64,000 nucleotides of DNA, taken from NCBI RefSeq assembly GCF_003703975.1, contig NZ_QTJY01000002.1:186001-250000 (forward strand), in the 5' to 3' direction. The DNA is from Larkinella soli. GTDB taxonomy: Bacteria; Bacteroidota; Bacteroidia; Cytophagales; Spirosomataceae. Shown here piece after piece: positions 8,401 through 18,848 of the stretch (position 1 is the stretch's first letter; every line of letters begins with the position of its first letter). The notes under the pieces were generated by a model that did not search any database, was not told the DNA's origin, and saw only the letters and a list, made by a program, of their open reading frames with translations. The translations under genes were made by a program, and so were the position numbers.

Positions 8401-8805
8401 CTGCGCAGCGCCAGAGTTCCGGCTTCGACCTTCGATGAGGGAAAAAGCATTATGCGGTACAAAGGCCCGTCGGGTAGCGAACTGGCCATCGGCACGGAGA
8501 ACAACGCCTTCATCGCCTTCAACGACATCGATCTGACCGACATCCGCAGCCTGACGGTGGGCGTTTTCGGCAGCTCGCAGTATACGGTCGGCGGCAAGCT
8601 GGAAGTGCGGCTCGGCTCCCCCACCGGCACCCTGATCGGAGAAGCCACTGTCGAAAACGGCTCGACGACGCCGGTGAACGTGACGCTCAAAAGCCCGGCC
8701 GACACCCGTCCGCAGAAGCTCTACTTCGTGTATATCAACCCGAATGCGGGCAGTAAACCGCTGTACGCCATCGACTGGGTTCAGTTCAACACCCAGGCCA
8801 TGTAA
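5407..8805 (+). CDS. secreted ThuA / PQQ-type sugar dehydrogenase / PKD / cytochrome c fusion
   Basis: The start at 5407 gives a clean signal peptide ending in LSAVSLYAQ (an upstream ATG at 5371 adds 12 residues and spoils it). The 1132-residue product reads: ThuA glutamine-amidotransferase-like domain (about 35-250, with GGGYVGIHAAADTEYDWPW), six-bladed glucose/sorbosone dehydrogenase propeller (about 265-700, with CCHTGGSIAWDKAGNLYLSTGDD and GNRNPYRI), a PKD domain (about 705-795), a class I cytochrome c (about 850-955, heme site CKACH), and a C-terminal carbohydrate-binding-like beta-sandwich (about 960-1130). The cytochrome could accept electrons from the dehydrogenase. The sugar substrate is unknown. 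Multi-domain proteins like this are frequent in Cytophagales. It is followed by a strong terminator and stands alone. Confidence 0.9.
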   Translation: MLYFKPRPGLRSRVILKCLLAGFLALSAVSLYAQTPAKRVLVFSKTKGFRHQSIPAGKVALMKLGRENGFAVDTTEDAGKFTEANLKRYNLVVWLSTTGDVLDDTQQAAFERFIQAGGGYVGIHAAADTEYDWPWYGKLVGGYFASHPGNPNVQEGEAYVTNKNHVSMFGFPDRWKIKDEFYDFKKVNPEVNVLVKIDEKTYKEGKMGDNHPMSWYHDYDGGKAFYTNFGHPDETFTNPVYLKHLMGGIQYAMAPKLDYTKVKTQPFPEENRFMRDILVEKLDEPTELVVLDNGKVLLTERKGAVKLWDPKKKTSKLVANMPVFTKFEYGLMGVNIDPKFNENKWLYLYYSPVSGDTANRLVRIKYDDVRDTLLFNTEQTIMTVPVKRTGCCHTGGSIAWDKAGNLYLSTGDDTNPFESKGFSPSDDRPGREGWNALTTSSNTMDLRGKILRIKPREDGKYDIPAGNLFPAGTANARPEIYVMGNRNPYRISVDQRTGFLYWGEVGPDAGENSERFGPRGHDEVNQARKAGYYGWPLFVADNRPYRQFNFADSTSGAYYDPAKPINPSERIKGLRELPPAQKAFIYYPYADSPEFGPIVGKGGRNAMAGPVYYYDDYPETAVKFPRHYDGKFFSYDWIRDYIHPVTMTKEGDFVKLETFMPSSKFSHPIDMQFAKDGSLYMLEYGQNWFAQNDDARLTHITYNAGNRKPLAIAGASKTVGAAPLAVKFDSKGSLDYDGDAVRYEWTFGKGLPKSTQAAPTFTYAKPGVYHPVLKVTDAAGNVSTKTLEIKVGNEVPKVEVAVKGNKTFYFDNKPVEYEVKVADKEDGSLSAGKISPEDVTMTIDFLQGFDKTVLAQGHQANTSFSTGKRLIELSDCKACHSIDKKSIGPAYQAVAERYAKERRADMVNRLAKKVITGGGGNWGEQAMSAHPQLKDDEAKEMVTYILSLADKKQPNRQPLKGTYVAKPKEKDGSYLFTASYTDKGSTAIGPMTGSSTIALRSARVPASTFDEGKSIMRYKGPSGSELAIGTENNAFIAFNDIDLTDIRSLTVGVFGSSQYTVGGKLEVRLGSPTGTLIGEATVENGSTTPVNVTLKSPADTRPQKLYFVYINPNAGSKPLYAIDWVQFNTQAM

Positions 8806-8835: not shown

Positions 8836-8866
8836 AAAGCCGGCAGGGATCTCCTGCCGGCTTTTT
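8836..8866 (+). terminator. intrinsic terminator
   Basis: A 12-bp perfect stem, AAAGCCGGCAGG (8836-8847) and CCTGCCGGCTTT (8853-8864), five-base loop, then T. It ends the fusion-protein transcript and marks the left edge of the AT-rich patch. Confidence 0.9.
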
Positions 8867-8957
8867 AATTGAGGAATAAGATTTTTTATCAATGAGCGGA
8901 AAATTCAAATACTTTTTATTTTTATTGTGCAAACAATGAAAAGACTTGTCTATTTTT

Positions 8958-9092
8958 ATGATTTCCATTATCCCAAAACAAATTCTTTCTAAGGAAGAAG
9001 ACTTGACTTTTTCTATGAGTCTGAAAGACCTGACCCTCGAAGAACTTCAAACGATTCAGGGAGGATACCGAAGCCCTTTGTTCAGGGCTTAA
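8958..9092 (+). CDS. small double-glycine leader peptide (bacteriocin/pheromone-like precursor)
   Basis: A 44-codon frame opening at ATG 8958 (a second in-frame ATG at 9015 would give 25 residues). Its C-terminal part reads LKDLTLEELQTIQGG followed by YRSPLFRA and a stop. The pattern L-x-x-L-[ST]-x-E-E-L-x-x-I-x-G-G is the classic leader cleaved after Gly-Gly by C39-peptidase ABC exporters, as in class II bacteriocins, ComC-type pheromones and RiPP precursors. The predicted core has only eight residues, which suits a signal peptide or a truncated precursor. The region is far more AT-rich than its neighbours, and a CPBP protease follows after 48 bases. No C39 exporter is in the window. The call rests on the leader motif alone. 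Confidence 0.5.
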   Translation: MISIIPKQILSKEEDLTFSMSLKDLTLEELQTIQGGYRSPLFRA

Positions 9093-9140
9093 AAAGGTAA
9101 ACGATCCCTTAGGTGATTTGATAACGGGAGAAATCAGACC

Positions 9141-9847
9141 ATGAGAATTCCAGATTTTCTGACTGTTTCCAACGACCTGAAATCTTCGGAAGAAGGTACG
9201 CTTAGGAAGCTTAAAGAACTGATTATATGCCTCATTTTGCACTTCTCCCTAACGATCCTGATCGTAATTGCCTTATCTATACTGGATTTATGCCTCACCG
9301 ATTTGTTTCATCGGGATTCGATCTTAAAATCTAGAATCACCACGAAGGAGACTTACCAGTATTATGGTCGCACCTATGGAATTTTTATTATTTCCATAGG
9401 TGCACCACTAATTGAAGAATTAGCTTTCCGGCTGATGCTTTCCTTAAAGAAATACCATGTTGCCCTTTCAGGGGCAATTTTGTTTTTCTTTCTCACCGGT
9501 CCTGTCTGGAAAGTAGATGATTTAAATTTCTATTTACTAAGACTTTTTACAAGCTTACTTATTTTTATTTTGTTGATCCGGACATGGAAAAGACTCTACC
9601 CTGGTCTTAATGAAATCGATCCTCGGTTGATAGTAATTATTTTGTCATCCGCATTATTTGGAGGAGTTCATATTTTTAACTTCTCTCCTTTACAAAGTCA
9701 GCTACTGTATTTGTATCCGTTATATGTCTTTCCTCAAATCCTTTTTGGGATCATCTTAAGCATAATGCGGTTACGAAACGGATTCTTTGGAGTTTTTTAC
9801 TTCATGCCCTCGTAAATTTTTCCTCCATCGTTCATACCTTTATTTGA
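9141..9847 (+). pseudogene. CPBP-family intramembrane metalloprotease, frameshifted at its 3' end
   Basis: As written the frame stops at 9815 (224 aa). It is a hydrophobic multi-pass protein with two of the three CPBP (Abi/Rce1-like) motifs: EExxxR at Glu92-Glu93-Leu-Ala-Phe-Arg97 and FxxxH at Phe173-Gly-Gly-Val-His177. The third motif, HxxxN, is missing from this frame but is found just past a run of six T (9793-9798) in another frame, as HALVN followed by about 11 residues and TGA at 9845-9847. Adding one T restores a roughly 235-residue protein with all three motifs. CPBP proteins cleave prenylated or other membrane substrates and often sit in bacteriocin loci. Whether the shift is real or a homopolymer sequencing error cannot be told here. 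Base composition is AT-rich. Confidence 0.75.
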
Positions 9848-9854
9848 GGAGTGT

Positions 9855-18632: not shown

Positions 18633-18848
18633 ATGAACGAATCTAAAGCGGAGCGGATTGCCCGGCGGCACCGGGAACGGGATGAGAGGATGAAGGCGAC
18701 GCCGGGTTATAAGGTCTGGAGTGCCGTTTTTACCGTCAGTTATCCCATTATCGCGCTGTTCACGGCGCTGTTTTCCGTCATTGTCTCCATCTTTTCCAGA
18801 ATTTCTCAGGCGGCCGTGTGGCTGTTGAGTGGGGGCAAAATCAAGTAA
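18633..18848 (+). CDS. small single-pass or hairpin membrane protein
   Basis: A 71-residue protein starting MNESKAERIARRHRERDERM, an arginine/glutamate-rich cytoplasmic head, then a hydrophobic stretch VWSAVFTVSYPIIALFTALFSVIVSIFSRI that could span the membrane once or twice, and a short basic tail. I do not recognise a family. It sits four bases before the next gene, so the two are likely co-transcribed. Confidence 0.6.
   Translation: MNESKAERIARRHRERDERMKATPGYKVWSAVFTVSYPIIALFTALFSVIVSIFSRISQAAVWLLSGGKIK

Follow-up and report, generated by a model that had tools for sequence, protein, structure and literature searches.

A solitary double-glycine peptide gene and its CPBP partner in Larkinella soli: a probable remnant of a known kind of bacteriocin module

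Abi/CPBP membrane proteins were reportedly described as bacteriocin immunity proteins by Kjos and colleagues in 2010. A putative unmodified bacteriocin cluster of Bacteroides sp. 2_1_56FAA, in the passage of PMC4573289 that presents it, combines a peptide with a CAAX protease, a C39 ABC protein and HlyD-type proteins. The bacteroidetocins (Coyne et al. 2019, cited in PMC10352776) are class II peptides of Bacteroidales with double-glycine (GG) leaders, and their clusters carry a C39 (PCAT) transporter; the part of PMC10352776 that deals with such peptides also mentions GG precursors in Bacteroidales that have no C39 exporter in the cluster. What does the CAAX protease contribute? The relevant section of PMC8692603 considers, for one such protein in a bacteriocin locus (SilX), a possible part in self-immunity. 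The SilX study, in the part concerned with the role of that protein (PMC9298176), reports no immunity role and suggests that SilX processes a signal peptide.

Here we describe a GG-leader peptide gene followed by a CPBP gene in the genome of Larkinella soli (G000; 6.92 Mb in 82 contigs). The window is the whole stretch of 64 kb that was analysed (G000:C2:186001-250000). The pair is probably real, of a known kind and a remnant. Among the matches listed in full-text literature searches there was no paper on this locus.

An AT-rich patch with two genes

The patch is about 1 kb long and lies between a gene with ThuA, GSDH, PKD, cytochrome c and CBM6 domains (stop at 8805) and an opposite-strand TMEM220 gene (Table 1). 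The GC content is 37.0% in the CPBP gene and 40.0% in the peptide ORF, against 57.9% in the window, and the first-pass annotation was correct in placing an AT-rich patch between two ordinary genes. The right flank is present in all nine Larkinella genomes (L. soli included). In the sister genome G100 the flanking genes adjoin each other, with 123 bases from stop to stop, compared with 1049 in L. soli. Because the site is empty in G100, the patch is best read as either an addition in L. soli or a loss in that sister, a comparison that does not fix the direction. In a second sister, G016, the matching intergenic site is occupied by a different gene, a 343-aa ORF (L050, G016:C5, about 1280-2730). 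In the other six Larkinella genomes, no left flank turned up next to the right one. The patch edges have no direct repeats, neither a target-site duplication nor repeats that would betray a mobile element; no exporter remnant was seen within the patch, and the upstream region offers only weak -7-like boxes as promoter candidates.

Table 1. Positions of the features discussed (plain numbers count from the first base of the window; other entries give contig and locus)
Feature	Position	Strand	Evidence
Terminator-like perfect inverted repeat	8836..8864	.	3' of the ThuA-type gene, at the left patch edge; short T run after it
AT-rich patch	8867..9850 (limits approximate)	.	No counterpart at the matching site of sister genome G100
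44-aa GG-leader peptide gene	8958..9092	+	ORF reading; leader matches below cut-off
CPBP/Rce1-like membrane protein, 224 aa	9141..9815	+	PF02517, 24.5 bits (cut-off 22.4); alignments
-1-frame stretch WSFLLHALVNFSSIVHTFI with motif 3 (HxxxN) and stop	9788..9847	+	Aligned with in-frame ends of relatives
HlyD, C39 ABC exporter and 43-aa GG peptide	G000:C30, L052:6950-10568	+	
LanC-like, LanB-like dehydratase and C39 ABC transporter genes	G000:C10, L051:4549-11183	+	
72-aa GG peptide, then two Rce1-like ORFs (162 and 101 aa)	G000:C4, L119:3266-4706	+	

The peptide frame has 44 codons and ends LKDLTLEELQTIQGG-YRSPLFRA, with its stop codon at 9090-9092. The two glycines are residues 35 and 36, which leaves a core of eight residues (YRSPLFRA); an internal in-frame ATG lies at 9015. 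Between the peptide stop and the CPBP ATG there are 48 bases. The frame, its GG-YRSPLFRA end and the gap had all been given in this form by the first-pass annotation, and its outer limits need to be changed: the ATG at the start that it gave (8936) opens another frame of 18 codons, and at the end that it gave (9847) it is the -1 frame that stops, not the CPBP ORF.

In the CPBP protein, motif 1 (EELAFR, for EExxxR) and motif 2 (FGGVH, for FxxxH) align with those of relatives. The frame then ends in GVFYFMPS, before motif 3, and the residues LLHALVNF (motif HALVN) can be read only in the -1 frame. All ten aligned relatives have the motif in frame, with ends of the WSVLLHILIN type. The encoded protein is therefore a truncated member of PF02517 and not a complete protease, and of the three-motif protease first proposed here, motifs 1 and 2 and the family assignment stand and the third motif does not. 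The His and Asn of motif 3 belong to the active site of Rce1; thus, the protein as encoded probably does not work as a protease. The frame loss is a property of the deposited sequence, and an error in sequencing could look like such a frameshift. The CPBP protein had no match among plasmids, and none among solved structures at E<=1.

Programmed -1 frameshifting would restore a full-length CPBP protein. A T-rich run lies just 5' of motif 3 and the -1 frame is open from there to its stop at 9847, as slippage would require. However, the residues WS, which several relatives also have, lie 5' of the T run, and even there they are read in the -1 frame. The frame must thus have changed 5' of the run, which argues for a mutation or a base-call error over slippage. 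No classical heptamer is in register, and the aligned relatives encode motif 3 without any shift; programmed frameshifting was rejected as barely credible.

The leader and the short core

Is the peptide a gene, or is it an accidental GG-containing frame 5' of a lone, degraded CPBP gene? The curated GG-leader models are one point in favour of an accident. The search against leader models that had been suggested for this peptide does give matches, to PF16934 (17.5 bits, cut-off 27.6; E 0.0035), NF033456 (18.4 bits, cut-off 24; E 0.0015) and TIGR01847 (13.5 bits, cut-off 15.7; E 0.092), and none of them reaches its cut-off. Seven GG peptides that stand beside CPBP genes in relatives were scanned in the same way, and they too missed the cut-offs or had no match (none of seven over); a score below cut-off does not, therefore, exclude a leader. 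When the whole genome was searched with TIGR01847 at E<=10, two places were found, namely the peptide beside the exporter on contig C30 (E 0.435) and the window peptide (E 1.66).

A profile built from 20 leaders of the relatives' loci, with the window excluded, gives a similarly weak signal. Among 1019 short ORFs from L. soli DNA (the window, L051, L052 and L119), the window peptide ranks third with 5.8 bits (E 1.2), below the peptides of contigs C30 and C4 (16.9 and 14.6 bits). Of 5000 full shuffles, 13 reach this score, which speaks against an accident; of 5000 that keep the two glycines, 85 do, which speaks for one. The same profile applied to the whole genome at E<=10 picks out C30 and C4 together with one more place, on C5, and the window peptide is absent.

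The position of the frame argues against an accident. On both strands of the 64 kb, the pattern used for the relatives' loci finds no GG-leader-type ORF of 25-115 aa other than the window peptide, and a looser pattern adds one more (18633-18848). From a background of 0.0185 per kb of strand far from CPBP genes, about 0.006 such ORFs would be expected on the same strand in the 300 bases upstream of the CPBP gene.

Homology favours the accidental frame, in that no full-length homologue of the peptide was found: only three of 200 family genomes, L. soli among them, have a match at E<=0.1. The best outside match (G162; E 0.0098, with 48% over residues 7-38) falls in the leader of a different GG-type ORF, L015, whose core is unrelated, and the third lies inside a 954-codon frame. 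The pattern LxxL-x-EELxxI-x-GG had been put forward for a conservation check, and the peptide itself proved not to be conserved in the family genomes.

The core of eight residues is shorter than all of the 24 neighbouring cores listed, which have at least 17 residues, and it is unlike the cores of related loci (best score P 0.13). A longer ancestral core in the +1 frame, where a tail of 25 residues follows the glycines, was considered and is unsupported (P 0.25 against 2000 shuffles). In the same comparison, which comprised four tests, P was 0.13 for the reversed-tail control; for the 11 residues of the +2 frame it was 0.012. A family search with leader and tail together found no notable homologue: matches at E<=1 occur in 10 of 222 genomes, L. 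soli included, and the best of the others (E 0.009) has an internal stop.

Related loci and the search for an exporter

Matches to the CPBP protein at E<=1e-8 were found in 12 of 200 family genomes, and, across the order, a CPBP profile at E<=1e-15 matched 43 of 390 genomes (L. soli counted in both). A separate scan gave 21 loci in Larkinella, Spirosoma, Runella, Dyadobacter, Mucilaginibacter, Sphingobacterium, Ferruginibacter and others. For the analysis of neighbourhoods 27 distinct loci were used, with the window left out and L058, L059, L060, L064, L071 and L076 dropped as presumed duplicates of whole-genome loci. The first-pass annotation had proposed looking for homologous small peptides beside CPBP genes in other Cytophagales; 11 of the 27 loci have GG-leader peptides on the same strand within 2.5 kb, 24 peptides in all. 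Their density is 0.190 per kb of strand near CPBP genes, compared with 0.0185 far away. The remaining 16 loci have none by pattern, a pattern that still misses some real-looking peptides (L066, L041). HlyD and/or ABC transporter matches are present at 16 of the 27 loci, within the stretch covered and not always adjacent; the ABC match of L037 is weak, but this locus also has HlyD. The other 11 have no exporter match in that stretch, and five of them, from Mucilaginibacter, have no GG peptide nearby either. This branch of CPBP proteins is thus not tied to bacteriocins everywhere.

A second set of 30 loci minus that of L. soli, limited to covered flanks, has a same-strand GG peptide at seven of 29 loci (L127, L129, L131, L132, L141, L147 and L148, with L132 weak); it is not independent of the 27, which had included the contigs of L126, L127 and L129. 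In six related loci (L035, L036, L038, L040, L042 and L043) the gap from the last peptide to the CPBP gene is 6-71 bases, a range that brackets the 48 bases of the window, and this likeness to the relatives' operons is a further point against an accidental frame. In L037, L075 and L077 the gap is longer or another ORF intervenes.

The CPBP genes of relatives are also AT-rich, with 24.9-38.4% GC in all nine that were measured, so an AT-rich patch is typical of this cargo. The two exporter genes of G043, by contrast, are like its flanking genes in GC content (49.1 and 53.9% against 50.7 and 53.7%). The AT-rich patch of L. soli fits horizontal exchange and does not date it.

Could an exporter be supplied from elsewhere in the genome? 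None adjoins the pair, and here the first-pass annotation was right locally; L. soli nevertheless has two C39 domains above the Pfam cut-off. One belongs to the HlyD and C39 pair on C30, which is possibly a shared exporter; the 43-aa peptide beside it has a weak match, below cut-off, of the lactococcin G-beta type. The second belongs to the C10 locus, which by its gene content is a lanthipeptide-type cluster. On C4 there is a further peptide and CPBP unit, whose two Rce1-like ORFs (26.1 and 34.6 bits) are both over the Pfam cut-off. This unit, too, is AT-rich; it takes the place of the full bacteriocin cluster that other Larkinella carry at this site, and the 7.4 kb covered has no exporter match. 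Its CPBP proteins are not of the window's branch; searches for that branch find only the window copy. The existence of a second unit with no adjacent exporter suggests that peptide and CPBP units can live apart from one.

The common Larkinella site has different contents in different genomes. In G043 three GG peptides are followed by CPBP (37% identity to that of the window), HlyD and C39 ABC genes. The order is the same in G071, where the CPBP gene is broken across two frames (L038:7356-8049). G091 keeps HlyD, C39 ABC and a different GG peptide, with only C-terminal fragments of CPBP (L120:7358-9404), and in G082 the CPBP gene begins at a contig edge. In G058 and G100, tblastn finds none of the cluster genes at this site. 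G108 keeps a CPBP gene alone, with no peptide (L039:7815-8534); it is of the same branch as that of the window, and a CPBP gene standing without a peptide again favours the accidental frame. Taken with the evidence of position, an accidental frame is nonetheless unlikely. Decay of the cluster, as judged from these sites, recurs across the genus.

Such decay also bears on the idea of an intact, working module, in which the CPBP frameshift is a base-call or assembly error or is harmless, and the peptide, exported in trans by the C39 and HlyD proteins of C30, has an immunity partner. The 224-codon frame is open, with motifs 1 and 2 and the conserved segments intact up to the break; an exporter is available in trans, and the C4 unit offers a second case. 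On the other hand, the core has eight residues, against 17 or more in the 24 neighbouring cores listed, and CPBP is broken at two of the five other Larkinella sites (G071 and G091). We doubt, on balance, that the module is intact.

A probably decaying module and its known counterparts

We favour, with moderate confidence, a solitary bacteriocin-type cargo module, exported in trans or left from a lost cluster, that is now decaying. It would be a Bacteroidota module of the GG-leader, class II-like kind, a precursor and CPBP apart from their exporter. The leader would be cut after the two glycines by a C39 exporter, here possible only in trans, the C39 ABC and HlyD pair on C30 being one candidate; the module would formerly have been exported in this way, or would derive from a cluster since lost. 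The CPBP protein encoded directly downstream would have served as an immunity or processing partner. Because CPBP has lost motif 3 and the core has only eight residues, the module is most likely decaying. Export, cleavage and loss of function are what we infer from gene content, and the immunity role is proposed because of known cases of CAAX proteases in bacteriocin loci. Several results count against the module: the peptide has no full-length relative and scores weakly on the leader profile, there is no remnant of a longer core or, in the patch, of an exporter, and 16 of the 27 CPBP loci have no GG peptide.

A pheromone has also been considered, that is, an eight-residue signal secreted after C39 cleavage, with CPBP as its maturation or sensing partner. 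The form of the leader and the C39 exporters of the genome would suit it, and the CPBP protein SilX of Streptococcus anginosus is linked, in the part of PMC9298176 that treats it, to a signal peptide and its processing or export. Next to the pair, however, neither a receptor nor a kinase gene was recognised, CPBP is without motif 3, the octapeptide is not conserved and the related loci carry longer, bacteriocin-like cores; a pheromone is very unlikely. Equally improbable is a live minimal signal module, in which the octapeptide would leave through a shared C39 exporter in trans, CPBP would work without motif 3, and the pair would be one of at least two scattered GG-peptide and CPBP units that lack exporters of their own and are served by a single one.

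The original reading of a bacteriocin locus thus gains from the GG peptides and the C39 and HlyD exporters near the relatives' genes, and not from the leader models, which stay below cut-off. Its own refuting conditions give a mixed outcome: every leader model falls short and the peptide is not conserved, while its place beside a CPBP gene of this type agrees with the relatives. Three options had been offered for the tiny core. Of these, a horizontally acquired remnant has the most support, as the patch is absent from a sister genome, which would also fit loss in that sister, and motif 3 is lost. Nothing in the results speaks positively for a short signal peptide. A new pairing finds no support, for a peptide with CAAX protease, C39 ABC and HlyD proteins was already published for Bacteroides sp. 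2_1_56FAA, as the cluster is presented in PMC4573289.

The locus may show how, within a single genus, AT-rich peptide and CPBP bacteriocin cargo is gained, parted from its exporter and lost: sister Larkinella have a full cluster, a lone CPBP gene, fragments or nothing at the usual site. It draws attention, too, to a second peptide and CPBP unit in the genome, and to a C39 exporter that could serve orphan precursors.

How does the pair compare with known systems? Similar to the Abi/CPBP immunity proteins, it places an Rce1-like membrane protein beside a GG-leader gene of the bacteriocin type; in contrast to them, the L. soli protein has no in-frame motif 3, and its immunity role would be by analogy. 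With the bacteroidetocins, likened here only through their description in part of PMC10352776, the peptide shares the GG leader. As in Bacteroides sp. 2_1_56FAA, a small peptide gene lies immediately 5' of a CAAX-protease (PF02517) gene; judged by the gene content given in that portion of PMC4573289, the Bacteroides cluster includes its exporter, whereas in L. soli the exporter is elsewhere, the core has eight residues and CPBP is truncated. The clusters of G043 and G071 occupy another chromosomal site and have longer cores and an exporter in the cluster, but they belong to the same genus, encode a related CPBP protein and have the same order of peptide and then CPBP.
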